A DNA stretch of 13,289 bases from Chloroflexota bacterium (lineage in GTDB: Bacteria > Chloroflexota > Anaerolineae > Anaerolineales > Villigracilaceae). The position numbers were made by a program, and so were the translations under genes. Shown here in pieces: positions 2,025-13,289 of this stretch. Position 1 is the stretch's first letter. The number at the start of each line of letters is the position of its first letter. The stretch lies in assembly GCA_016191895.1 (NCBI GenBank), contig JACPVD010000210.1, positions 1-13,289 of the forward strand, given 5' to 3'. The notes under the pieces were generated by a model. It saw only the letters and a list, made by a program, of their open reading frames with translations, was not told the origin of the DNA and searched no databases.

Positions 2025-2083
2025 CTCCAGTAGGGTTTTTCGCGCCGCTCAATTGACGGGCTGACTTCTTTTATTGTACACTC
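2025..2083 (+). promoter_or_regulatory. Promoter and shared upstream block of first transglutaminase gene
   Basis: Three blocks recur at identical spacing upstream of both transglutaminase genes. Here they are CTCCAGTAGGGTTTTT (2025-2040), nine bases, CAATTGACG (2050-2058), sixteen bases, TGTACACTC (2075-2083). TTGACG (2053-2058) fits a -35 and TACACT (2077-2082) a -10 with an 18-bp spacer. The ATG at 2089 begins seven bases after the -10, so transcription probably starts at or next to the start codon. The 16-base upstream block may bind an activator, which is inference. The rest of the gap 1840-2024 holds only the divergent kinase promoter. Confidence 0.7.
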
Positions 2084-2088
2084 AACCT

Positions 2089-4422
2089 ATGAATCAGTCA
2101 CCCGCCCGCCGTTGGGACCTGCCCTCGGCTGTCTTTTTATTTTTCGCGATTCTATTCTCCCTCTGGCGTTTGCAACTCACCGGCTGGACGGAGGGATTGG
2201 GCTACGTCCGCAATACGGCGATTTGGGGGCTTGTCATCGGGCTGGCGTTGGGGGCAAGCGCGTTCAAACGACGCGGAGTGGTTCTGCTGACAATCGGCTA
2301 CATGCTGGTCGTGTTCACCTGGCAATGGTTCAATTTGATTGACTTCGCAAAAGAAGACGCCTACCTCGGCGACAGGTTGTTGATTCTTGCGGGCAGGCTC
2401 CTGCTTGGGTTGAGCGAATACGTCGCCGGCCGGCCGGTGAAAGACCCGTTGTTCTTTATCGCCATGTTGTGCATTCCCTACTGGTTTATTTCGCTGATCA
2501 GCGGCTACCAGATGACGCGCCACGCCAACGCGCTCGCAGCCATATTACCCGGCGGCATCGTCATGTTCCTGGTCTTCCTCCTGCATTACACCGACGAAGA
2601 TTACAGTTGGTTATTCGGCGCGTATCTCTTTGCGGCATTTTTATTTTTAGGACGGCAGAAATATCTCGCCGATAAACGAAAATGGGACGCGCGCCGCGTG
2701 CAGATCCCCGTTGAAAGCGGCATGGATTTCAACAACACCATCCTCGCCAGCGCGGCAGTCGTCATCTTGCTGGTGTGGCTGATACCATCCGCCCTGCCGT
2801 ACAACAATGCAATACGAAAAACATGGAACGACACATCCAAAAAATGGTTTGCGCGAAACGAACGCTGGGAAAACATGTTCGCCTCCGCCAAACAGGATGC
2901 GGTTCCAGTCAACGATTTTTATCGCGACACCATGCCGCTCGGCACCTACGCCAAACAGGGCGAATCCATTGCCTTTCTCGTGTACACCCAGCCGTCGCCG
3001 GTGGAGCCGCCCCGTTTGTATTGGCGCGGCCGCATCTATGACCGTTTCGAAGACGGACGCTGGACAACATCGAACACAAAGAGCGCAACCTTCTCCCCGC
3101 ACAACAACGACCTTGAAATCGCAGACGCGCAAAATCGCATCGGGTTCGATTTCACATTCAACATGTATTTATCCGGGCAGACCATCCTCTACGCCGCGGC
3201 GCAACCGGTGTGGGTCAGCCACCCGGCAAACATCCTGTACAAAACGGTTTACGAAGGGGAACGACAGGAAAACGTTTCAGGCATGGCCGAAACGATGGAC
3301 ATCACCACCATGCAGGCCGTGCCCTTTCTTACAGAGGGAGAGTCGTATCACACCACATCGCTCATCGCGAATCCATCCGCCGACCAGTTGCGAACCGCCG
3401 GTGAGGAATATCCCGCATGGGTGACGGATGAATACCTGCAACTGCCGAACGACTTTTCCGTCCGCATTCAATCGCTTGCGTTCGAGATCACCGCCGATTC
3501 AAAAACACCCTACGATAAAACCGCCGCCATCACCGAGTATCTTCGCCAAGAAATCAAATACATCCCGTCGGTAAAACTCCCCGCCGAGTCTGTTGATCCG
3601 CTCGAATATTTTCTCTTCGATTCAAAGCAGGGTTTCTGCAATTATTACGCCAGCGCCGAAGTGTTGATGCTTCGTTCCATCGGAGTCCCGGCGCGGCTTG
3701 CGGTGGGCTTTGCGCAGGGCGAGTCGAATTTGCAAAACACGTTTTACACCGTCCGCGAACGCGACGCGCATGCCTGGCCCGAAGTGTATTTTCCAAAATA
3801 CGGCTGGGTCGAGTTCGAGCCGACCGTCAATCAGGCCGCACTGATCCGCCCCGATAAAAACGAAGAGCCTGAGCCCATCGCCACGCCGGAGATTCTCGCG
3901 CCCGATCCAATTATTCAGGAAGACGCCCCGCCCGAACCCGTGGACTCATCCCCGGCCGGATTCTTCACCCGAACTCGAATCATCTTAATCAGCCTTGCCG
4001 TGCTCGGACTCACCCTCAGCCTGTTCCTGTTTCTGATCAACAAAAGCCTGGCCTCGAACACCCGCGCCGCAATCGCGATCCGCTCGGCGATCGAAAGCGG
4101 GGCATGGCCTTCGCCAGCATGGTTGCAACATTGGGCGCGCTGGCTCGAACTGACCTCCATCGAAAGAGCCTTCCATAGCGTCAACACCGCCTTGACATGG
4201 ATGGACAAAACGCCGAACCTCCACGCCACACCCGCAGAACGCGCCGCAATGTTGACCGAACTCATCCCCGCCATTGCGCCTTCCGTCAACATCCTCCTGC
4301 GCGAGCACCACGCCGACCTGTTCACGCCGAACGCAGGAGACTCATCCCTCGCCCGCCGCGAGGCACGGAAGATCTTGTGGCGTGTTGCATATTTGAAGAT
4401 GAAGGAATTCGCGGCCAGGTAA
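2089..4422 (+). CDS. TgpA-type membrane transglutaminase-like protein, copy 1
   Basis: A 777-residue protein with the TgpA architecture. The N-terminal region has about seven hydrophobic helices (roughly 12-31, 42-60, 64-82, 113-135, 142-164, 172-192, 217-238). An extracytoplasmic region then leads into a transglutaminase core (about 445-580), a Pro/Glu-rich linker (about 583-622), one more helix (631-652) and a cytoplasmic tail with TPAERA, resembling DUF4129. Catalytic Cys is C517 in QGFCNYYAS and His is H561 in AHAWPEVYF. The third triad position carries Glu (E577 in FEPT) where TgpA has Asp. The family acts at the cell surface as amidase, protease or cross-linker; the substrate is unknown. 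A TTG at 2074 is in frame but lies inside the promoter, so the ATG at 2089 is preferred. Its paralogue lies 193 bp downstream. No MoxR/DUF58 partners are present. Confidence 0.92.
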   Translation: MNQSPARRWDLPSAVFLFFAILFSLWRLQLTGWTEGLGYVRNTAIWGLVIGLALGASAFKRRGVVLLTIGYMLVVFTWQWFNLIDFAKEDAYLGDRLLILAGRLLLGLSEYVAGRPVKDPLFFIAMLCIPYWFISLISGYQMTRHANALAAILPGGIVMFLVFLLHYTDEDYSWLFGAYLFAAFLFLGRQKYLADKRKWDARRVQIPVESGMDFNNTILASAAVVILLVWLIPSALPYNNAIRKTWNDTSKKWFARNERWENMFASAKQDAVPVNDFYRDTMPLGTYAKQGESIAFLVYTQPSPVEPPRLYWRGRIYDRFEDGRWTTSNTKSATFSPHNNDLEIADAQNRIGFDFTFNMYLSGQTILYAAAQPVWVSHPANILYKTVYEGERQENVSGMAETMDITTMQAVPFLTEGESYHTTSLIANPSADQLRTAGEEYPAWVTDEYLQLPNDFSVRIQSLAFEITADSKTPYDKTAAITEYLRQEIKYIPSVKLPAESVDPLEYFLFDSKQGFCNYYASAEVLMLRSIGVPARLAVGFAQGESNLQNTFYTVRERDAHAWPEVYFPKYGWVEFEPTVNQAALIRPDKNEEPEPIATPEILAPDPIIQEDAPPEPVDSSPAGFFTRTRIILISLAVLGLTLSLFLFLINKSLASNTRAAIAIRSAIESGAWPSPAWLQHWARWLELTSIERAFHSVNTALTWMDKTPNLHATPAERAAMLTELIPAIAPSVNILLREHHADLFTPNAGDSSLARREARKILWRVAYLKMKEFAAR

Positions 4423-4566: not shown

Positions 4567-4609
4567 GCTCCAATGCAATTGACGAATGCCCTGTATTCAA
4601 TGTACACTC
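4551..4609 (+). promoter_or_regulatory. Promoter and shared upstream block of second transglutaminase gene
   Basis: Same layout as upstream of the first copy: CTCCAGTAGGGTTTTT (4551-4566), nine bases, CAATTGACG (4576-4584), sixteen bases, TGTACACTC (4601-4609). The -35 is TTGACG (4579-4584) and the -10 is TACACT (4603-4608), spacer 18 bp. The ATG at 4616 begins eight bases after the -10, again implying a leaderless transcript. Each copy therefore has its own promoter. Confidence 0.7.
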
Positions 4610-4615
4610 GCGCTT

Positions 4616-7006
4616 ATGGATAAATCCATTGCCGCTCCCGACTTTTGGGAAAACGTAACCGCATCCATTAAACACAGCCTGCCCAAGCGGGAATGGGACT
4701 GGCAGGCCGCGGTACTTGCCGTTCTGCTTGTGCAAATCGCCGCCGCGCGGCTTTCGATCACCAAATGGGTTCCATCCCTGAATGTTGTCATCTTGTTGAG
4801 TTTTTATGCCGTATGTCTTGGATTGGTCATCGGATATGGCGGCCTCTCGCGCCGCAACGCCATTTGGATGGGCGTTGAATATGGATTGTTGCTCATCCCG
4901 CTGCAATTCCTGAAAGCGATTGAAACCACCGGCGTCCTGCACGAAGACCTGCGCGGAATCCTGGTTCGCCTTTTCGACTCGGTCGTATTCCTGGCCGAAA
5001 ACCAGCCGGTAAACGACACGATTTTCTTCCTGGCACTCATGTCCATTGGATTTTGGGCCATTGGCATGTACACGGGCTATCAACTGGCGCGGCATGGAAA
5101 TTTCATCCCAACTGTTGTTTCGCCCGGGTTGGCGATGCTGATCGTCCAGGTATACGATCCCTGGATCTCGCGCCGCGTGTGGGCGTTCGCCTTCTACTTC
5201 TTCGTTTCGCTGGCGCTCCTCGGACGTTGCAATTTCCTCAAAAACAGCATTTTTTGGAAAACAAAACGGGTCTTTCACACCACCGATTCCGAATGGGATA
5301 TTTCGCGAAGCGTCGTCAGTTTCGCCGCCGTTGCAGTGTTGGCGGTATGGGCGTTGCCTTCCGCGTTGAACGCTGTCGACTCCTTTGCGAGGGAATGGCG
5401 CGGTTTTGTCCGCCCCATCGAAAAGAAATTTTCCAACCCCGTCGCCGCGTTGGATTCGCCTTACGGCGCGCCTCCCAGCAGTGACTTCTACAGTTCGAGT
5501 CTCGGCTTGGGCGATAGCGCCCCGGTCAGCGATACGATCGTTTTTTCGGTGGAAGTAAATCACATCGAATCGGAGCCCACCCGCTATTACTGGCGCGGCA
5601 GGATTTACGATCATTACGAAAACGGCCAATGGACGAATACGGACGTCACGCGCCGCGACTTCGACCCCGATACCGACGAAATGCCTTTCGATATCACTCC
5701 CCTGCGAAGCGAAGCGATATTCACCGTCACGACAAATTTCCCGCGGCAGGAGTTGATCTATGCGCCGTCTGAAATGATCTGGGTCGATCGCGCAGGCCGC
5801 GTGGTTTCGACCACGGCAACGGATTCAGACGCCGACGTAAATGCCTGGATGGCATCCCCCAGCCTGGTCGCGGGAGACAGGTACCAGGTCCGATCGAGAA
5901 TCGCGAATCCAAGCATCGAGGAATTGCGCAATGCCGGAACAGAGTATCCCGCATGGGTAACGGATCGCTACCTTCAAGTCCCAACAGATGTTAAGCGGCC
6001 GCTTGAAACGCTGGCACAACGGGTTGCGGGGGCATATATCACCCCCTACAATAAGGCGCAGGCTGTGACGGCGTATCTGCGAAAGGAAATCCAATACACG
6101 ACCAAGTTGATCGATTCGCCGCCAAGTTATCAAGACCCGGTGGTGTGGTCGGTGTTCGAATACAAACAGGGATTCTGCATGTATTCCGCCAGCGCGGAAG
6201 TGTTGATGCTGCGCACGCTGGGGATTCCCGCGCGAATGGCGGTGGGATTCGCCGAAGGCGATTTCGACCCCGAAGAAAATCATTATGTGGTGACGCAAGC
6301 GGATTCGCACGCATGGCCGGAAGCGTATTTCCCGGGCATCGGCTGGGTGGAGTTCGAGCCTACTGGAAATCAGTCGCCGTTGAATCGCCCACAGCGGGAA
6401 ACCAGGGAGGAGACTGCGGGGCTGGAACCGGGTGATTCGACAAATAATCGCCCGGATCAAAATACCGACGATGAATTCGCCGAAAACCCCAATAACGATC
6501 CGCTTCTGCGCGAGGATGAATTGATGTCACGCGCAGCGCCAACGGCCGGCCCGGGGACAAGTCTTGCGCTATGGGCGGCGTTCTTAATTTTCTTTTCCGC
6601 CGGCGTCTACATCGTTCAACGTTATTCGTTTGCAAACCGCCTGCCGATCTACCTGCAAAGCCGCTACGCCAAAAACGGACAGCGCCCCCCGGCCTGGATT
6701 CAACGCTGGGCAAGTTGGGCGATCCTCGCGCCGGTGGAACGCGCTTTTCATGCCGTTGATTTGAGCCTGCGTTGGTTTGGCAGGTCGCAACCGGCGCATG
6801 TGACGCCTGTCGAGCGCGCAAACGCATTGGGGCGATTGCTCCCTTCCGCGCAGGAGGCCATCGCCACCCTCGAACGTGAGCATGAGATCATCCTGTTCAC
6901 AAACCATGACGGGAATCTCGCCGCCGCCCGCAAAGCCGCGCTTTCGATTCTCTTCGAGAGTCTGCGAAAGACGATCCGCGAAGGCCGGCGGCCGGTGATG
7001 GATTGA
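4616..7006 (+). CDS. TgpA-type membrane transglutaminase-like protein, copy 2
   Basis: A 796-residue paralogue of the preceding gene, similar along its length; compare PAWVTDRYLQVP here with PAWVTDEYLQLP in copy 1. About six or seven hydrophobic helices lie in the first 260 residues, then an extracytoplasmic region and a transglutaminase core (about 450-585) with C521 in QGFCMYSAS, H565 in SHAWPEAYF and E581 in FEPT. An Asp/Asn/Glu-rich linker (about 590-640), a helix (650-668) and a DUF4129-like tail with TPVERA follow. As in copy 1, the triad acid is Glu. An ATG at 4586 is in frame but lies between the -35 and -10, so 4616 is chosen. Likely role: surface processing of protein or peptide substrates. 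Two retained copies suggest different substrates or conditions, which is inference. Confidence 0.92.
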   Translation: MDKSIAAPDFWENVTASIKHSLPKREWDWQAAVLAVLLVQIAAARLSITKWVPSLNVVILLSFYAVCLGLVIGYGGLSRRNAIWMGVEYGLLLIPLQFLKAIETTGVLHEDLRGILVRLFDSVVFLAENQPVNDTIFFLALMSIGFWAIGMYTGYQLARHGNFIPTVVSPGLAMLIVQVYDPWISRRVWAFAFYFFVSLALLGRCNFLKNSIFWKTKRVFHTTDSEWDISRSVVSFAAVAVLAVWALPSALNAVDSFAREWRGFVRPIEKKFSNPVAALDSPYGAPPSSDFYSSSLGLGDSAPVSDTIVFSVEVNHIESEPTRYYWRGRIYDHYENGQWTNTDVTRRDFDPDTDEMPFDITPLRSEAIFTVTTNFPRQELIYAPSEMIWVDRAGRVVSTTATDSDADVNAWMASPSLVAGDRYQVRSRIANPSIEELRNAGTEYPAWVTDRYLQVPTDVKRPLETLAQRVAGAYITPYNKAQAVTAYLRKEIQYTTKLIDSPPSYQDPVVWSVFEYKQGFCMYSASAEVLMLRTLGIPARMAVGFAEGDFDPEENHYVVTQADSHAWPEAYFPGIGWVEFEPTGNQSPLNRPQRETREETAGLEPGDSTNNRPDQNTDDEFAENPNNDPLLREDELMSRAAPTAGPGTSLALWAAFLIFFSAGVYIVQRYSFANRLPIYLQSRYAKNGQRPPAWIQRWASWAILAPVERAFHAVDLSLRWFGRSQPAHVTPVERANALGRLLPSAQEAIATLEREHEIILFTNHDGNLAAARKAALSILFESLRKTIREGRRPVMD

Positions 7007-7053: not shown

Positions 7054-7132
7054 AGACGCAATGTATGACCGCGTTCAGTATAGAACTTGCGGACTCCGCC
7101 CGTGAGCGCGGACAAGTTGAAACTTATCCTAC

Positions 7133-7161
7133 GTGATAATTTTCCAGATACCCGTTATAAT
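7133..7161 (+). promoter_or_regulatory. Promoter of the adenylate cyclase gene
   Basis: A perfect TATAAT -10 lies at 7156-7161. GTGATA at 7133-7138 (four of six -35 matches) lies 17 bp upstream. The ATG at 7180 leaves a leader of only about a dozen bases and no Shine-Dalgarno is seen. Confidence 0.6.
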
Positions 7162-7179
7162 CTATGTGGTACTCGAATT

Positions 7180-8889
7180 ATGGCCGAACTCACACGCCCT
7201 CAATCCCTTTCCGAACAGTTGATTGCCCTGCGCCTGCGCGCGGGGAAGATTCGCACCCAGTTCGATGAGGCCGGCCTCAAACTTCCCAAGGTCATTCTCG
7301 ACGACCTTTCGCACATCGAGAACGCGCTCATGCAGGCGAGCGAAAAGATCGCCGCGTTTCAACGCGAACAGGGCAACCTGCTCGCGCTGGCCGATATCGG
7401 GCAGGTGGTCAACTCGTCGCTCGAACTCGACGAAGTGCTCACCATCGTGATGGACAACATCGTGCGCCTGACCAAAGCCGAGCGCGGCTTTCTGATGCTG
7501 CGCGACGAAAAAGGCGAGATGACCACGCGCATGGCGCGCAACTGGGAAATGGAATCGATCAACTCCTCCGAACTCACCGTGAGCAAATCGGTGGTGGGGC
7601 GCGTGATCGAAAGCGGCGAGCCGCTCATCACCACCAACGCGCAGGAGGACACGCGCTTTGCCGGGCAGGAAAGCATTGTGGCCTTCAACCTGCGCTCCAT
7701 CTTGTGCGTTCCCCTCAAAGTAAAAAACGACCTGATCGGCGTGATCTACGCCGACAACCGAATTCGCACGGGCATCTTCGCGGAAACAGAACGGGACCTG
7801 CTCGTGGCTTTTGCCAATCAGGCCGCGGTGGCGATCGACAACGCGCGCCTGTTCTCCTCCCTCAAGCGCACGCTCGAAGAAGTCACCGGGCTGAAGAATT
7901 TGATGGATAACATCTTCGCCTCCATCGCCAGCGGCGTGATCACAGCAGACATCGAGAATCAGATCACGCTCACGAACCGCGCCGCGGAAACAATTCTGGG
8001 ATTTGCATCCAGCGACATCATCGGTCATCTTCTTAACGATACGCTTGCCTCTGTTTCGAAGGAACTCGAGCCTCATCTGACAGAGGTGCGCGAAACCGAC
8101 AAGGCCATTGTGGGGCTCGAGATCAGCCACCACTTCCCCACCCGCGGCAACGTGGACTGGCGCTTCAATCTTTCCCCGCTCAAAGACGCGGGACAAAAAA
8201 CGCAGGGAGTCGCCATCGTCCTCGACGACCTGACCGAGCGCAAGAAACTCGAAGCCCAGCGAAGGCTCTTCGAGCGCATGGTCTCGCCCGCCGTGATCGA
8301 ACAACTCGACCCGAACAGTTTGCAACTGGGCGGCAAGCGCGTGACCATCACCACGCTCTTTGCCGATATCCGCGGGTTTACAACCTACAGCGAAAAGGTT
8401 GGGCCAGAGAAACTGGTGAGCATCCTCAATCGCTATCTCGCCGCCATGGCCGAAGCCGTCCTCTCCCAGGAGGGCACGATCGATAAATTCATGGGCGACG
8501 CGATCATGGCCTGGTTCAACGCCCCCATCCCCCAACCCGATCACACCCTGCGCGCCGTGAGATCCGCGCTGACCATCCGCGAATCGGTGGAGAAGTTATA
8601 CAAGGAACTTCCCGAAGAGGCTCATCTTTTCTTCGGCGTGGGCATCCACAGCGGCGAAGCGGTGCTGGGTTTGATCGGCACCGAAAAGAGACTCGAATAC
8701 ACCGCCATCAGCGACTCGGTCAATACGGCCAAGCGCATTCAGGAAAATTCCGCCAGGAACCAGATCCTCATCAGCGCGGCCGCGTATGAATCAGTGATGA
8801 AGGAAGTGATCGTCAAGCCGCACGAGGACATGGCCGTAAAAGGCAAGACCCATCCGCTGGGAGTGTTTGAGGTGGTGGGGTTGAAATAA
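7180..8889 (+). CDS. GAF-PAS-class III adenylate cyclase
   Basis: A 569-residue protein with no membrane segment. It has an N-terminal helical stretch (about 10-65), GAF domain (about 68-225), helical linker, PAS domain (about 238-360) and class III nucleotide cyclase domain (about 385-569). The catalytic set is complete: metal aspartates D396 (FADIRGFT) and D440 (FMGDAIMAW), adenine-reading K436 and T508 (YTAISDSVN), and transition-state N515 and R519. The Lys/Thr pair points to ATP and so cAMP. GAF and PAS domains would gate activity in response to small molecules or redox state; neither ligand can be read here. The ATG at 7180 fits the promoter; a TTG at 7087 lies upstream of the -10 and is rejected. 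The gene has its own promoter and is probably monocistronic. cAMP specificity is inference from key residues. Confidence 0.95.
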   Translation: MAELTRPQSLSEQLIALRLRAGKIRTQFDEAGLKLPKVILDDLSHIENALMQASEKIAAFQREQGNLLALADIGQVVNSSLELDEVLTIVMDNIVRLTKAERGFLMLRDEKGEMTTRMARNWEMESINSSELTVSKSVVGRVIESGEPLITTNAQEDTRFAGQESIVAFNLRSILCVPLKVKNDLIGVIYADNRIRTGIFAETERDLLVAFANQAAVAIDNARLFSSLKRTLEEVTGLKNLMDNIFASIASGVITADIENQITLTNRAAETILGFASSDIIGHLLNDTLASVSKELEPHLTEVRETDKAIVGLEISHHFPTRGNVDWRFNLSPLKDAGQKTQGVAIVLDDLTERKKLEAQRRLFERMVSPAVIEQLDPNSLQLGGKRVTITTLFADIRGFTTYSEKVGPEKLVSILNRYLAAMAEAVLSQEGTIDKFMGDAIMAWFNAPIPQPDHTLRAVRSALTIRESVEKLYKELPEEAHLFFGVGIHSGEAVLGLIGTEKRLEYTAISDSVNTAKRIQENSARNQILISAAAYESVMKEVIVKPHEDMAVKGKTHPLGVFEVVGLK

Positions 8890-8959: not shown

Positions 8960-9000
8960 GGTCGAGTAGGACGGACGCTCTTTCCGTCTGTATCGAGACC
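8960..9000. repeat. Imperfect long hairpin
   Basis: Inner arms GACGGA (8970-8975) and TCCGTC (8983-8988) and outer arms beginning GGTCGA and ending TCGAGACC can fold together with a two-base bulge. It lies between the heptamer array and the terminator. It could be a mobile palindromic element or an RNA structure in the cyclase 3' region. Confidence 0.5.
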
Positions 9001-9027
9001 ACAGATGGATAGTGATCAGTGATCAGT

Positions 9028-9057
9028 CTCCCGAGGCAGTGCGCTTCGGGAGTTTTT
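9028..9057 (+). terminator. Rho-independent terminator
   Basis: CTCCCGA (9028-9034) pairs perfectly with TCGGGAG (9046-9052), an 11-base loop between them, followed directly by TTTTT. It lies 138 bp after the cyclase stop and upstream of the NACHT gene, so it most likely ends the cyclase transcript and insulates the DGR cassette. A short direct repeat of AGTGATC precedes it (9011-9024). Confidence 0.75.
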
Positions 9058-9080
9058 GTTTGATGAAGGGTTTGAGGGTA

Positions 9081-9124
9081 GGACAAGATTTATCTTGTCC
9101 CTGCAAGGCAACGTGAACGTTGCC
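9081..9124. repeat. Pair of perfect palindromes with two-base centres
   Basis: GGACAAGAT (9081-9089) and ATCTTGTCC (9092-9100) surround TT. GGCAACGT (9107-9114) and ACGTTGCC (9117-9124) surround GA. Six bases separate the two palindromes. Their shared design but different sequence suggests modules of a composite intergenic repeat; a regulatory role for the gene at 9222 is possible but not shown. Confidence 0.75.
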
Positions 9125-9163
9125 ATACACGACGGGTGTAAAATAGGGCATATTCAGCGCGTA

Positions 9164-9185
9164 GCGGACGTTCTCCAACGTCCGC
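9164..9185. repeat. Perfect hairpin upstream of the NACHT gene
   Basis: GCGGACGTT (9164-9172) and AACGTCCGC (9177-9185) form a nine-base stem with a CTCC loop. It ends 36 bp before the ATG at 9222, so it would lie in the 5' leader if transcription starts upstream. I see no convincing promoter for the NACHT gene; TAAAAT at 9139-9144 lacks a properly spaced -35. Confidence 0.7.
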
Positions 9186-9221
9186 AACCTTCTTCACCCA
9201 GTCCAACCAGCGAGGCAAAGC

Positions 9222-12200
9222 ATGGACATCACCCAAATAGCCGCAGATACCGCAAATTTTTTAGCGCCCTACCTCCCTTACCTCATCGCGGGGACAAAAC
9301 TCGCCGCGAAAGCCGCGATCGAAAAGGCGGGAGGAAACTTTTCGGATGCATTGTGGAAGAAGGCCGAGGAATTATGGGGCAGGCTCAAACCCAAAGTGGA
9401 ATCGAGCCCTGTGGCGCAAAAGGCGATCGAGAATGCCAGCGCAAATCAACTTGCAAAAGCCGAAGGCAAAGCCGATAACATCACCGCGCAGGTGAAACTG
9501 GAGGCGATGCTCGAAACCATGCTTGAAGCCGATGAAGACCTGCGGGCGTTTGTGGAGGCGGAGGACTACAGCATCCATATCGGCGGGAATGTCGAGAACG
9601 CCAATATCCTCAGCAACAGCAATAACAACCAGATCATCAGTCATATCGAGCATTATTATGCGGGGGTGCCTGTTTCGGATGCGGAAAAAGAGAAGACCCA
9701 AAACGCCTTTCGCGCCCATCTCGAAAAACTGCGCCGCCATTGCAATGCCCTGCCGCTGGCCGCTTTGGGCGGAGATGATTCGGATGAAGATATTACACTC
9801 GATAAAGTTTATATTGAATTGGACACAACACAGTCCAGGGAAATTTCCAAAGAGGAATTTCGTCAACACAGAAAAGTTGATAAATCGGGCGTAAATTTTA
9901 TTGACAAACACGCACCCATCAGCGTAATGGACTTCGCCGCGGAAAACAAACGGCTGGTAATTCTCGGCGAGGCGGGCGCGGGGAAAAGCACCTTTGTAAA
10001 GAAATTGATCGCGCTGCAATCTGCGGTATTGCTTGGAGAGACCAAAGAATCAATACAGGGGTTTGCGCCCGACCTCGTGCCCGTATTCATTGTATTGCGC
10101 GACCTCAGCCCGAAACTCGCGGCATTGGACTTGGGGAAGTTATCGGCAGAAAACCAGAAGCAGGCGTTATCCGAATCCATCCTCGAAAAAATACGCGAGG
10201 ATATAAAATCGGCGGAGTTCATCCCGTTGCTCGAGAAATCATTCGAAAGCGGAAAAGTTCTGCTGGTGCTGGATGGTCTGGATGAAGTGCCGCAAGCCCT
10301 GCGCGAACGGGTGCGAAGAGCCGTTGGCGCATTGACTCAATTACATCAGGTGGAACGGGTCATCGTCACATCGCGGACGCGCTCGTATACCGGGCAGGCT
10401 GTCTTCCCGAATTTTCAGTCCTGCGTGATTGCGCCCTTCGACGAGGAAAAGATCTCCCGCTTTGCGCAAGCATGGTACAACGAACAATTTCATCTCGGAC
10501 ATCTGACCGCAGAACACGTGGAAAAACGTTCCGACGACCTTGCCAACGCCGCCAGAGGCGAAGACCTGATCGAAATGTCGAGCAACCCGATGATGCTGAC
10601 CAGCATTGCCATCATCCATCAAAAGGATATCGGCCTGCCGCGCGAGCGTGTGCGTTTGTACCGCCTGATCGTGGAAGTGTTGCTCAGCCGCTGGCAAAAA
10701 TACAAGGCGGGTGAGGAAAGTCTGGCGCCGTCGAAGGCATTGACAGAATTCCTGGTGGAGGGCAAGCGTTTACGCGCCGCGCTTGAACTTCTCGCCTATG
10801 AAACGCACCGCGCAAATTACGCATCAGGAAATAACAACGAAAAGAACAGCGAGGCCGACCTTCCACGCGGACAAGCGTTGACCCTTTTGGAAAGCGGTAA
10901 ATATCTTGGCAGTACCGAACTGGCTTCGGAGTTCCTCGATTATGTGGACCAGCGTTCGGGGTTGTTGGTGGGCAAAGGGGGCGACTTGGAAAAACCGACT
11001 TCGTACAGTTTCCCGCACCGCACGATTCAGGAATATCTTGCGGGATGTTCCCTCGTAAGCGAGCGCAATCGCGGGCGCGAATATTTCAAACATGCCGCCG
11101 AAGGCGATTTCTGGAGTCTTGCGGCGTTGATGGGCGCGGAAGAACTCTATTACAACCACGACAAAACAAGAGACGCCCTGCTTGATCTGGCCTATCATCT
11201 TTGCCCCGTATCCACACCCAGAAACGAACAGGATGAACGCGCTCTGCTTTGGTCAGGACAGATCGCCTGCCTGTTTGGAAACGAAGAAATCAAAAACGAC
11301 GCGGATAATTCCGCCAGTGGGAAAGAATATCTGGATCGCCTGATTGCCCGCACAGTGGAATTGCTGGAAAGCAAACACCTCCCTCCCCGCGAACGCGCCG
11401 AAGCGGGGAACACTCTCGCCAAACTCGGCGACCCGCGCCCCGGTGTTCTCCCTCACCCCGCGCTTCGCGCGACCCTCTCCCGCGGGGAGAGGGTGAATAT
11501 CAATCTCCTTTTCTGCGAAATCCCCGCTGGCAAATTCCTCATGGGAAGCAGGGAAGGCGAGAAGGATTCTTTGAAAAGCGAATACCCGCAATTCGAATAC
11601 CCCATCCCCTACAACTACTTCATGTCGCGCTACCCGATCACCAACGCGCAATTCGACCTGTTTGTAAACGACCCCAAAGGCTATATAAACAATGAATGGT
11701 GGACAGAGGCAGGTTTGAAATGGCGAAAAGACAGAAAAGAACATAACCGTTATGGCGGGGTATTTTCGCTCTCCAATCATCCCGTTGTGGGTGTGACGTG
11801 GTATGAAGCGGCTGCGTTTTGCAAGTGGCTGGCGAAACAGCATCAAGTATCAGGTTCCAGGTTTCAGGTGTACGATTCGCAAACGCATTCCATTCGAGAA
11901 GATGAGAATCTAAAAACATTGATCCTCGCTCAAAAATTGGAAATCAGACTGCCGACGGAAGCCGAATGGGAACGCGCCGCTCGCGGTTCTTTCGCGCTGG
12001 GCGCGGTCGAAGCGCACACTTATCCCTGGGGCAATGAGATCACCCCCAACCATGCCAACTATTCCGATACCAACCTCAACGCCACCAGCGCAGTGGGCGC
12101 GTTTCCATTGGGAATGAACGACTACGGCCTGCTCGACATGAGCGGCAATGTTTGGGAGTGGTGCGCAACGGAATGGCAGGAAAACTATAAGGAGTATTTG

Positions 12201-12470
12201 GAAAAGGAAAACAACAACCCGGAAGGTGACGTGGCGCGTGTTGTTCGCGGCGGCGCATACGGCAATGTAGACAGGATTCTGCGGTGCGCGAGGCGCTTCA
12301 GGAACAATCCCTCTTCGTATGGCTCACTCAAGGCTTTCGTGTGGTGGCGTCGTCGTTCCTATTTTCTCTTCCATCTTATTCTGGTTCCTGATTTCTGTTT
12401 TCTGGTTTCTGAAAAGGTTTTAAAAAAATTTTTTGGATTTTTGACCCTGAAGGATGCTCAAGGCCTTTAG
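9222..12470 (+). CDS. DGR target: NACHT NTPase with C-terminal FGE/C-type-lectin-fold variable domain (frameshifted in VR)
   Basis: The frame as assembled encodes 1082 residues. Residues 1-116 are helical and not recognised. A Gly/Asn-rich linker (about 118-150) precedes the NACHT domain: Walker A GEAGAGKST (249-257), Walker B LLVLDGLDE (347-355) and TSR (383-385). The helical NACHT tail includes NPMMLTS and FPHRTIQEYL. An FGE-sulfatase/C-type-lectin-fold domain starts near 764 (IPAGKFLMGS) and includes RLPTEAEWERAARG, GNVWEW (975-980) and VVRGGAY. The C-terminus is the DGR variable repeat. From codon 1031 the frame is shifted relative to the template repeat; adding one base restores GFRVVASSFLFSLPSYSGS and a stop at 12389-12391 (about 1056 residues). 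Weak GAGG lies six bases before the ATG. NACHT proteins are ATP-driven switches; here the diversified lectin-fold end probably binds varying ligands and the N-terminus gives output. Two repeat-derived inserts lie in the coding region. Confidence 0.93.
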   Translation: MDITQIAADTANFLAPYLPYLIAGTKLAAKAAIEKAGGNFSDALWKKAEELWGRLKPKVESSPVAQKAIENASANQLAKAEGKADNITAQVKLEAMLETMLEADEDLRAFVEAEDYSIHIGGNVENANILSNSNNNQIISHIEHYYAGVPVSDAEKEKTQNAFRAHLEKLRRHCNALPLAALGGDDSDEDITLDKVYIELDTTQSREISKEEFRQHRKVDKSGVNFIDKHAPISVMDFAAENKRLVILGEAGAGKSTFVKKLIALQSAVLLGETKESIQGFAPDLVPVFIVLRDLSPKLAALDLGKLSAENQKQALSESILEKIREDIKSAEFIPLLEKSFESGKVLLVLDGLDEVPQALRERVRRAVGALTQLHQVERVIVTSRTRSYTGQAVFPNFQSCVIAPFDEEKISRFAQAWYNEQFHLGHLTAEHVEKRSDDLANAARGEDLIEMSSNPMMLTSIAIIHQKDIGLPRERVRLYRLIVEVLLSRWQKYKAGEESLAPSKALTEFLVEGKRLRAALELLAYETHRANYASGNNNEKNSEADLPRGQALTLLESGKYLGSTELASEFLDYVDQRSGLLVGKGGDLEKPTSYSFPHRTIQEYLAGCSLVSERNRGREYFKHAAEGDFWSLAALMGAEELYYNHDKTRDALLDLAYHLCPVSTPRNEQDERALLWSGQIACLFGNEEIKNDADNSASGKEYLDRLIARTVELLESKHLPPRERAEAGNTLAKLGDPRPGVLPHPALRATLSRGERVNINLLFCEIPAGKFLMGSREGEKDSLKSEYPQFEYPIPYNYFMSRYPITNAQFDLFVNDPKGYINNEWWTEAGLKWRKDRKEHNRYGGVFSLSNHPVVGVTWYEAAAFCKWLAKQHQVSGSRFQVYDSQTHSIREDENLKTLILAQKLEIRLPTEAEWERAARGSFALGAVEAHTYPWGNEITPNHANYSDTNLNATSAVGAFPLGMNDYGLLDMSGNVWEWCATEWQENYKEYLEKENNNPEGDVARVVRGGAYGNVDRILRCARRFRNNPSSYGSLKAFVWWRRRSYFLFHLILVPDFCFLVSEKVLKKFFGFLTLKDAQGL
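11448..11494. repeat. Palindromic repeat inserted in frame in the NACHT-FGE gene
   Basis: CCCTCTCCC (11473-11481) and GGGAGAGGG (11485-11493) form a perfect nine-base stem with a GCG loop, preceded by CTCACCCC. It is translated as about 16 residues including PHPALRATLSRGERV, placed between the NACHT tail and the FGE domain, where relatives would run straight into the FGE start. A diverged element of the same type lies at 13177-13224. Confidence 0.7.
11846..11866. repeat. Heptamer repeats inside the FGE domain
   Basis: Three units, AGTATCA, GGTTCCA and GGTTTCA, match the intergenic heptamer array at 8892-8947. Three units are 21 bp, so the reading frame survives; they encode most of QVSGSRFQV (875-883). 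The surrounding stretch between FCKWLAKQ and RLPTEAEW is about 30 residues longer than usual for the FGE fold. Confidence 0.75.
12225..12358 (+). repeat. DGR variable repeat (VR)
   Basis: This 134-bp stretch at the 3' end of the FGE domain aligns to the TR at 12914-13048. All 14 substitutions fall where the TR has adenine: VR 12228, 12261, 12262, 12268, 12277, 12297, 12298, 12312, 12314, 12315, 12318, 12323, 12324 and 12327 (three to G, nine to T, two to C). VR also lacks one base opposite TR 13001-13002 (AA). None of the roughly 100 non-adenine positions differs. The last 27 bases (12332-12358) have no adenine and are identical in both copies, as expected for the invariant anchor at the 3' end of a VR. 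Confidence 0.95.
12377..12411. repeat. 7-bp tandem array just after VR
   Basis: Five heptamers in a row: TATTCTG, GTTCCTG, ATTTCTG, TTTTCTG, GTTTCTG. The array begins 18 bp after the VR and contains the restored stop codon of the target gene (12389-12391). It has the same period as, and a similar sequence to, the GGTTTCA array after the cyclase gene. Confidence 0.7.
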
Positions 12471-12479
12471 TGCCTTTTT
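12460..12479 (+). terminator. Possible weak terminator between target gene and avd
   Basis: AAGGC (12460-12464) and GCCTT (12472-12476) can pair across a seven-base loop and continue into T residues. With a five-base stem it may only attenuate, allowing some transcription into avd. Confidence 0.35.
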
Positions 12480-12503
12480 CATAAATACATAAAAGGAGAA
12501 CCC

Positions 12504-12845
12504 ATGAAGGAATCGCCCATTTTCATTCGCGCGTTCGATCTCATGATGTGGTTACTGCCCGCCACGACCAAATTTCCAAAAGAGCAGCGCTTCATCCTTG
12601 CGCAGAGGGTGCAACATGCCGCCTTCGGATTCTATGAAGCCATCACAGCCGCATCATTAAGCAAAAGAAGACAGGCGCAGTTTTTGGAAGATGCGGATAT
12701 TGAATTGCAACGACTGAGACTCTACTTGCGTTTAAGCCGCAGGCTCGAATTTTTAGACAGCGGCCAATATGAGCATGTGTTCAAAATGATCGAGGAGATT
12801 GGGAGGCTACTGGGAGGGTGGAGCAAAAAGACGGAAGTCAGGTGA
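12504..12845 (+). CDS. avd: DGR accessory variability determinant Avd
   Basis: A 113-residue, all-helical, basic protein of the Avd family (four-helix bundle, related to the 23S rRNA intervening-sequence protein fold). Typical family features are FDLMMWLLPATTKFPKEQRF near the N-terminus, LAQRVQHAAFGFYEAI in helix 2, LRLYLRLSRRLEFLDSGQYE and the ending EIGRLLGGW. Length is normal for Avd. In characterised DGRs Avd forms a basic pentamer that binds the reverse transcriptase and TR RNA and is needed for mutagenic cDNA synthesis. AAGGAG (12493-12498) lies five bases before the ATG, the best ribosome-binding site in the window. It sits between VR and TR, the standard target-avd-TR order. Its stop codon is inside the left arm of the hairpin at 12840-12873. 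Confidence 0.93.
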   Translation: MKESPIFIRAFDLMMWLLPATTKFPKEQRFILAQRVQHAAFGFYEAITAASLSKRRQAQFLEDADIELQRLRLYLRLSRRLEFLDSGQYEHVFKMIEEIGRLLGGWSKKTEVR

Positions 12846-12873
12846 CAGTCACTTACAAAAGTGACTGTCACCT
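12840..12873 (+). terminator. Perfect 15-bp hairpin between avd and TR
   Basis: Arms at 12840-12854 (AGGTGACAGTCACTT) and 12859-12873 (AAGTGACTGTCACCT) are perfectly complementary with an ACAA loop; the left arm contains the avd stop. The right arm runs into TTTATAAT. It could terminate the avd message, protect its 3' end, or be a REP-like palindrome. It lies 40 bp before the TR. Confidence 0.65.
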
Positions 12874-12875
12874 TT

Positions 12876-12881
12876 TATAAT
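12876..12881 (+). promoter_or_regulatory. Possible -10 box for the TR transcript
   Basis: A perfect TATAAT directly follows the hairpin. CTTACA at 12852-12857 (four of six -35 matches) lies 18 bp upstream, the same spacing as in the transglutaminase promoters, but inside the hairpin. It would start a TR RNA near 12888, about 26 bases before the TR. It may instead be only the A/T-rich tail of the hairpin. Confidence 0.4.
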
Positions 12882-12913
12882 GGAACAGCCAATATAAATT
12901 GGCGGGGCTGGCT

Positions 12914-13048
12914 GGTAACGTGGCGCGTGTTGTTCGCGGCGGCGCATACAACAATGAAGACAGGAATCTGCGGTGCGCGAGGCGCAACAGGAACAATCCC
13001 AACAACGAATGGAACAATCAAGGCTTTCGTGTGGTGGCGTCGTCGTTC
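12914..13048 (+). repeat. DGR template repeat (TR)
   Basis: A 135-bp non-coding copy of the target gene's 3' end. It is rich in AAC/AAT/GAA codons exactly where the VR varies: read in the target frame it gives GGAYNNEDRNLRCARRNRNN and then NEWNNQGFRVV, the usual Asn-rich look of a TR. About 34 adenines by hand count; 14 are substituted in VR and one base of an AA pair is missing. AAC codons can change to many amino acids without giving a stop, which is why TRs favour them. Its RNA should be reverse transcribed with adenine misincorporation and copied into VR. An 85-codon frame across it (12899-13156) is a by-product, not a gene. Confidence 0.95.
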
Positions 13049-13176
13049 ATGCTTCTCGAACAGGAAGGTTTTCAGGGTTTCCCCTGTTTACCCCAGGACA
13101 GAAATGCTTTCCACGTAGAACTGGAGGCCGAGTCCGAACCTATGGAAGAGAAATAGCGCAGTCACGCCCTGGCTGA

Positions 13177-13224
13177 CCTCACCCCCAACCCCTTTGGGCT
13201 CCTAAAGGCGAGGGGAGAGGGGAG
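13177..13224. repeat. Diverged CTCACCCC...GGGGAGAGGGG palindromic repeat
   Basis: CCTCACCCCC starts the element and AGGGGAGAGGGG closes it, with CCTTT and AAAGG pairing at the centre. It resembles the element translated within the NACHT-FGE gene at 11448-11494. It lies 129 bp after the TR. The rest of 13049-13176 shows no gene or repeat that I can support. Confidence 0.55.
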
Positions 13225-13245
13225 AAGTCAGGCGAATATAGAAGA

Positions 13246-13281
13246 GCCGCGCGGCCTCGGCAAATGTCCACGCCGCGCGGC
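13246..13281. repeat. GC-rich hairpin around a candidate start codon
   Basis: GCCGCGCGGC occurs twice, at 13246-13255 and 13272-13281, 16 bases apart. The word is itself palindromic, so the copies can pair as a ten-base all-GC stem. The ATG at 13264 would lie in the loop. Confidence 0.7.
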
Positions 13282-13289
13282 AATCTCCA
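13264..13289 (+). CDS. Candidate start of the DGR reverse transcriptase, cut by window edge
   Basis: An ATG at 13264 opens a frame, MSTPRGNL, that runs off the right edge. It is 215 bp after the TR, on the same strand, where DGRs usually place the reverse transcriptase, and an early Gly-Asn-Leu is compatible with the N-terminus of DGR reverse transcriptases. Only eight residues are visible, no Shine-Dalgarno is seen, and the start codon sits in the loop of a GC hairpin. The call rests mainly on position. Confidence 0.35.

Follow-up and report, generated by a model that had tools for sequence, protein, structure and literature searches.

Diversity-generating retroelements (DGRs) that diversify sensors built from a NACHT and a C-type-lectin (CLec) domain have already been described in multicellular bacteria, and filamentous Chloroflexi are among the hosts of reverse transcriptase (RT) clades 5A-5D (passages of PMC10907252); by the same account, the sensor role of these NOD-like receptor (NLR)-like proteins is still untested. 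FGS domains of DGRs are placed in conflict systems in passages of PMC7159879. Here we analyze a 13,289-nucleotide stretch of DNA from a Chloroflexota bacterium (the window, which is the entire contig JACPVD010000210.1), whose right-hand part carries a DGR of this kind. In the sequenced allele, the variable repeat (VR) of its NACHT-FGE target has left the reading frame that the template repeat (TR) keeps. We consider it likely, with a probability of roughly 70%, that the DGR rewrote the tip of this NLR-like protein, that the protein is a sensor of infection or self, and that the frame-broken allele is off until the next rewriting.

Alignment of the TR and the VR (135 and 134 nt) reveals 14 substitutions and one 1-nt deletion. 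All 15 differing positions are adenines in the TR, which contains 34 (P = 6e-11 for random positions), and the trimmed VR core has no mismatch to the TR at any other base; this is the adenine-only TR/VR pair of a DGR. The same preference is seen in related elements, where 1340 of 1380 mismatches in 89 TR/VR pairs are at adenines. The VRs of relatives diverge strongly though their TRs are similar, for example between the window and the relative G052, which belong to related species. The window comes from a genome bin of 2.11 Mb in 367 contigs (67% complete, 2.4% contamination), and a DNA search of this incomplete bin found one TR and one VR and no further copies of either.

The protein machinery is also in place. 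A bona fide Avd is encoded between the VR and the TR, with 92.4 bits to NCBIfam NF033474 (DivGenRetAVD; cut-off 80) and 74.6 bits to the Pfam family bAvd (PF22296; cut-off 40). The locus order within the window is target-avd-TR, and the contig stops before the RT gene. A DGR-type RT of 355 aa is found in the same bin on contig C351 (3983 nt), following its first 105 nt (locus L001, 106-1173); it contains the motifs GLPIGNLTSQ (the SQ motif) and YVDD and matches PF00078 with 75.8 bits. Its best relative in the PDB is 8ub7 (E = 1.5e-51), which we take to be the RT of phage BPP-1. In G052, the target, avd, TR, and RT all lie on one contig; this locus shares 79% identity with the window's end (12381-13261), and C351 aligns to it from its base 81 with 83% identity, about 180 nt beyond the match of the window end. 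Given that synteny with G052 places C351 just past the end of the window, the RT gene almost surely adjoins the window on the right, although the junction itself is not assembled. The RNA that spans the end of avd, the TR, and the spacer (12840-13289) is predicted to fold better than 100 of 100 shuffled sequences (z = -4.2); positions 9000-13289 gave no Rfam match at the gathering threshold. Among 151 related genomes, the RT is present in 32 (E<=1e-30), Avd in 45 (above the Pfam cut-off; weaker ones may be other four-helix proteins), and the N-terminal and NACHT part of the target in 63 (E<=1e-20).

The target scores 33.9 bits against Pfam NACHT (cut-off 26.7) and 177 bits against FGE-sulfatase (PF03781), above the Pfam cut-off. 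By predicted fold, its body resembles NOD2, NLRC4, and NLRP3, and its FGE/C-type-lectin domain matches the DGR protein TvpA. The predicted architecture is thus NLR-like: a helical N-terminal module, a NOD2-like NACHT body, and an FGE/C-type-lectin domain. As judged from these models, the target is of the C-type-lectin/FGE fold with the VR at its end, out of frame in the sequenced allele, and its central STAND/NACHT and C-terminal VR-bearing CLec domain give it the clade 5D-type architecture of Dore et al. Constant pieces (RGG, RCA, and GFRVV) flank the varied codons and largely match strands in the model of the homologue P0002. Against the NCBIfam model for EruA, the target reaches 40.3 bits, far from the cut-off of 1000, and none of the PADLOC families matches it at E<=1e-3. 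Relatives exchange the NACHT body while the FGE-DGR cassette is kept, which shows a modular exchange of sensor cassette and signalling body. Two relatives, each with a NACHT body 65% identical to that of the target, differ in what surrounds it: in OLB14 (L064, 3864-8588), the cassette order is VR-RT-avd-TR and the target has two frame breaks, and in G011 (L065), the target, a close relative of the window's, has a VR-like tip, but its locus lacks a TR/VR pair and neither RT nor Avd was found in the genome. The latter is an orphan sensor, perhaps a frozen one.

An earlier note on this DNA had proposed a target with a VR, avd, and TR in this order, with adenine-specific differences, and a NACHT NTPase coupled to an FGE/C-type-lectin domain with the VR at its tip. 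The alignment, the Pfam profiles, and the predicted fold agree with it, and the RT that it suggested looking for beyond the contig turned up in the same bin, beside the window by synteny. It had also reasoned that a VR that never differs between related strains would mean a dead or misread element; this is half answered, in that the VR differs strongly between species with similar TRs. What it overlooked is a frame break inside the VR, and the annotated end of the target does not stand.

One of the two TR adenines A13001 and A13002 has no partner in the VR (at 12311/12312), and this shifts the frame within the VR. Because of the 1-nt deletion, the annotated end of the 1082-aa protein is in the wrong frame relative to the template. 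The target of G052 ends in QGFRVVASFPISLPYSGS before its stop, and in its other frame the window has QGFRVVASSFLFSLPSYSGS ahead of a stop; the resemblance between the two makes the frame break look derived. The break also looks recent, given that the RT, Avd, and TR are all open, that the reading frame stays open for 1022 codons ahead of the VR core, and that the core lacks non-adenine mismatches. The break is at a template adenine, outside any homopolymer, and other adenines nearby are mutated. The predicted local distance difference test (pLDDT) scores are 38-50 at residues 1011-1050 in the model of the frameshifted tip and 70-92 at residues 991-1030 in the intact homologue P0002; the predicted fold of the wrong-frame tip collapses. 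We considered the idea that the wrong-frame tail is functional, as the window and P0010 both read a hydrophobic tail, but rejected it. In 70 VRs with no net insertion or deletion (indel), the shortest, middle, and longest frames after the VR run a median of 3, 11.5, and 36 codons to a stop, so a long open wrong frame is unsurprising.

To see how often VRs break their frame, we scanned 121 loci by self-comparison: the window, 40 chosen stretches around RT or target matches, which cover part of the RT places in related genomes, and 80 RT loci, the best 80 of 580. A TR/VR pair was found in 78 of them. The 90 unique VRs became 88 from 73 loci after a tandem-repeat artefact (L154) was dropped and the two pieces of L158 were merged; 26 of the 88 come from related genomes or the window and 62 from the best-80-of-580 set. 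Eight of the 88 VRs have a net indel not divisible by three (the window, L064, L078, L080, L091, L107, the third target of L144, and L167), and another eight have in-frame indels, six of them +3. Reading by hand adds L158 (+19 nt) and L137 (an extra G in a G run) for a total of 10/88 frame-broken VRs, split five and five between the related-genome/window group and the best-80-of-580 group. The count of eight is independent of any motif; sorting by tail motif gave 7 VRs out of frame, 77 in frame, and 4 not assigned, and revision by hand moved L080, L137 (loose motif), and L158 to out and the second VR of L163 as well as L178 to in, with L150 left unassigned. All 16 scripted indels lie in a TR context at least as rich in adenine as the TR mean (44% on average versus 25%; L107 is about equal). 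L144, from a KSB1 metagenome-assembled genome (MAG), has one TR and three targets, with two VRs in frame and one out.

At the protein level, the tail motif is intact in 95 of 120 listed family proteins; 12 have a VR start without the motif, and 13 have no recognisable VR start near the end. Six of these 12 read as broken: P0001 (the window), P0010, P0016, P0043, P0066, and P0111, the last of which may be cut by the end of its contig.

Two controls put these numbers in context. Upstream of the VR, a 600-nt stretch is open in 80 of 81 cases and broken in one; seven other VRs had too little sequence. The comparison of motif-sorted breaks with upstream stretches (7/84 vs 1/81) gives a Fisher p of only 0.064, owing to the unequal length of what is compared (about 115 vs 600 nt). 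On a per-base count, the VRs make up 17% of the sequence and hold 10 of the 11 breaks (p = 2e-7), or 8 of 9 (p = 6e-6). The viral control draws on 106 IMG/VR loci, of which 89 show a pair, and comprises 92 unique VRs; one of these VRs is frame-broken, a case with ambiguous bases in its repeats, and two have in-frame indels. Related VRs differ from viral ones in frame breaks (8/88 vs 1/92; Fisher p = 0.016) and in indels of any kind (p = 0.0012).

How, then, would such an allele arise and act? By analogy with BPP-1, TR RNA would be copied by an RT-Avd complex with errors at adenines, and the cDNA would replace the VR; the deletion is best explained by RT slippage at adenine-rich codons. A ligand would be bound by the varied FGE loops, binding would open or release the NACHT switch, and the output would pass through the N-terminal module, either itself or by recruiting partners with the same module. 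Since the TR keeps its frame, a further round of retrohoming would make the tip readable again and give it a new specificity. Reversible silencing of the target is therefore a live, unproven hypothesis. In its strongest form, the DGR produces not only new specificities but also an OFF state: slippage at A-rich Asn codons breaks about one in ten NLR-like sensors, the in-frame template turns them ON again with a new tip, and cells thereby escape self-triggering alleles. We regard this stronger form as a long shot, and the usefulness of an OFF state is speculation. Slippage in multiples of three has been posited for indels in AAC repeats (PMC12875486, there citing Wu et al. 2018 NAR), and in-frame VR indels are in that sense already known. 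We found no survey of frame-breaking VR indels in a literature search that covered passages of PMC3521204, PMC8144416, PMC4159848, and PMC12875486, and an earlier report of such indels may exist.

Several observations weigh against our reading. The RT sits on a separate contig, and its adjacency to the TR is inferred. The best 80 of 580 RT loci are 77 titled MAG, 2 uncultured, and 1 isolate (L170, on a Thiothrix plasmid); two of the ten breaks are doubtful, L064 for a second break upstream and L137 for its G run; and any single case may reflect misassembly or a wrong consensus where the VR is polymorphic. In-frame indels, too, are less frequent among viral VRs (2/92 vs 8/88), Asn runs are shorter in viral TRs (2.3 vs 3.2), and the viral and related sets are unmatched for sequencing method, so that part of the viral contrast may come from the RT clade or enzyme, or from AAC-rich TRs, and not from selection. 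Alternatively, the real sensor gene may be intact, and the frame break an artefact of assembly or sequencing at a site that varies within the population. The many contigs and partial completeness of the bin fit such an error, as do the ordinary-error features of L064 and L137, and more polymorphism is expected in the VR than anywhere else in the gene. We still find an artefact rather unlikely. Assemblers retain real k-mers, the break falls at a template adenine near mutated ones and away from homopolymers, only one of 81 upstream stretches of the same genes is broken, and viral VRs, many of them metagenomic too, are so much more rarely broken.

That the DGR is decaying and inactive and the target a pseudogene is very improbable. 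In favor of decay, the target tip is out of frame, and no second strain shows turnover of the VR; the open RT, Avd, and TR are the main grounds on which we rejected a dead element, alongside the absence of non-adenine mismatches in the VR core and the broken target of L144, which stands beside two readable ones under one TR. A further alternative concerns function: the diversified protein may be a receptor for kin or self recognition or for regulation in a filamentous bacterium and not a sensor of infection. NACHT proteins also run fungal incompatibility (passages of PMC7159879), and the gene sits beside the same GAF-PAS-cyclase gene in three relatives; DGR-NACHT targets, on the other side, are associated with antiphage systems in PMC10907252, where this is experimentally untested. 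We think a kin or regulatory receptor unlikely; the evidence here fits it as well as an infection sensor. For the DGR-rewritten, frame-broken sensor that we favor, we infer an immune or self-recognition role.

The N-terminal domain, which the earlier note had called unrecognised, proves to be a recurrent module, and other STAND-type ATPases are found with it as well. A profile built from seven N-termini gave no convincing Pfam or PDB sequence family, though a known fold may still exist; the best PDB match (a WD40 protein, E = 0.003) and the Pfam matches (E = 0.02-0.35) were taken as chance. In a search limited to small proteins of about 84-268 aa, the module recurs in 730 proteins at E<=1e-3 (4653 candidates). 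Among the 120 matches listed, 88 are 135-160 aa long, 11 have KTSC, and 3 have an EAD10 hit (P0134, P0157, and P0181), partial and just above the cut-off. A single small protein, P0181, retrieves the N-terminus of the window target at E = 1.2e-12. The KTSC domain is joined to the module in P0139, P0181, and nine others, which are 221-249 aa long. Eight loci were inspected: the module is fused to an NB-ARC ATPase in L305 (89.6 bits), its gene overlaps an NB-ARC-type gene in L312 (23.6 bits, cut-off 23.5), an AAA_16-like gene (below the cut-off) lies next but one in L298, and the five others have no STAND-type neighbour within short flanks. These first three loci indicate that the module occurs with STAND-type switches, fused or split. 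Its first helix looks hydrophobic by eye, and its output would be either membrane action or recruitment of partners. Our literature search returned no paper on HeLo-type N-terminal domains in bacterial NLRs.

Features of the DGR locus in the window, with the basis of each assignment.
Feature	Position	Strand	Description and basis
DGR target open reading frame (ORF), 1082 aa	9222..12470	+	N-terminal helical module, NACHT body, FGE domain; leaves TR frame after 12311; ORF listing, Pfam
N-terminal module	9222..9677	+	predicted helices, then beta-type linker; also in stand-alone, KTSC, EAD10-type, and NB-ARC proteins; profile search
NACHT NTPase and helical body after it	9678..11456	+	NOD2/NLRC4/NLRP3-like by predicted fold
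FGE/C-type-lectin-fold domain bearing VR	11517..12391	+	in TR frame, stop would be 12389-12391
VR, 134 nt	12225..12358	+	14 substitutions and 1 deletion vs TR
1-nt deletion site relative to TR A13001/A13002	12311..12312	+	shifts frame; TR/VR alignment
avd, accessory variability determinant, 113 aa	12504..12845	+	NF033474, PF22296, phrog_3206 'Avd protein of DGR'
15-bp hairpin at avd end, ahead of TR	12840..12873	+	RNA fold, sequence
TR, 135 nt, 34 adenines	12914..13048	+	open in target frame; TR/VR alignment
TR-RT spacer	13049..13289	+	conserved with relative G052; RT past contig end; synteny, RNA fold

Upstream, the target adjoins a GAF-PAS-adenylate/guanylate cyclase gene (7087-8889). This gene lies upstream of the target on the same strand in the window, G052, and G072, and next to an inverted target in G011 (the relatives' loci are L065, L066, and L069); the cyclase genes are 67-80% identical. 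Further upstream are two TgpA-like transglutaminase proteins in tandem (2074-4422 and 4586-7006) and, on the minus strand, a protein kinase fused to WD40-like (PD40) propeller repeats, whose gene is cut by the contig end (1-1845). Of the best 80 of 580 RT loci, 63 have Chloroflexota titles, with Thiothrix and Accumulibacter among the rest; a related DGR with its VR in frame lies on plasmid pTfr446 of the isolate Thiothrix fructosivorans (L170).

In bacteria, NLR-like sensors diversified by DGRs are a counterpart of the receptor diversification seen in adaptive immunity. This locus belongs to the kind already described, and it adds an example with a placed RT and relatives and with an output domain traced to a wider STAND-associated module. 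Random receptors risk self-triggering, and copying the same template with a frame break would offer an inexpensive escape that can be undone; if this is true, a single machine serves both to diversify immune receptors and to silence them reversibly.

Among known systems, the locus can be compared at several levels. Its NACHT body is like those of NOD2, NLRC4, and NLRP3 by predicted fold; in the window target, an FGE sensor replaces the leucine-rich repeats of these NLRs, and the N-terminal domain differs. With the bacterial antiphage protein EruA, it has the NACHT region in common as a weak match, far below the 1000-bit cut-off. The tip is predicted to have the FGE/C-type-lectin fold of Treponema denticola TvpA (2y3c), which to our knowledge lacks a NACHT body, unlike the window target. 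TvpA is itself a DGR target and figures as such in the reference list of PMC12875486. The RT and Avd belong to the same families as those of the Bordetella phage BPP-1 DGR (bRT, Avd, and Mtd), with the RTs 33% identical. Unlike the window, the BPP-1 element diversifies a phage tail target. The Thiohalocapsa PB-PSB1 DGRs 3 and 6 (clade 5D; Dore et al. 2024, PMC10907252), whose targets are putative antigen sensors, share with the window a DGR RT, a TR/VR pair, a central NACHT/STAND, and a C-terminal FGE/CLec VR domain, and the systems described there have modular targets, often with an uncharacterised N-terminal extension. The words frameshift and deletion are absent from the main text of that paper; the window differs from its systems in that its VR allele is frame-broken and its N-terminal extension is traced to a recurrent module.

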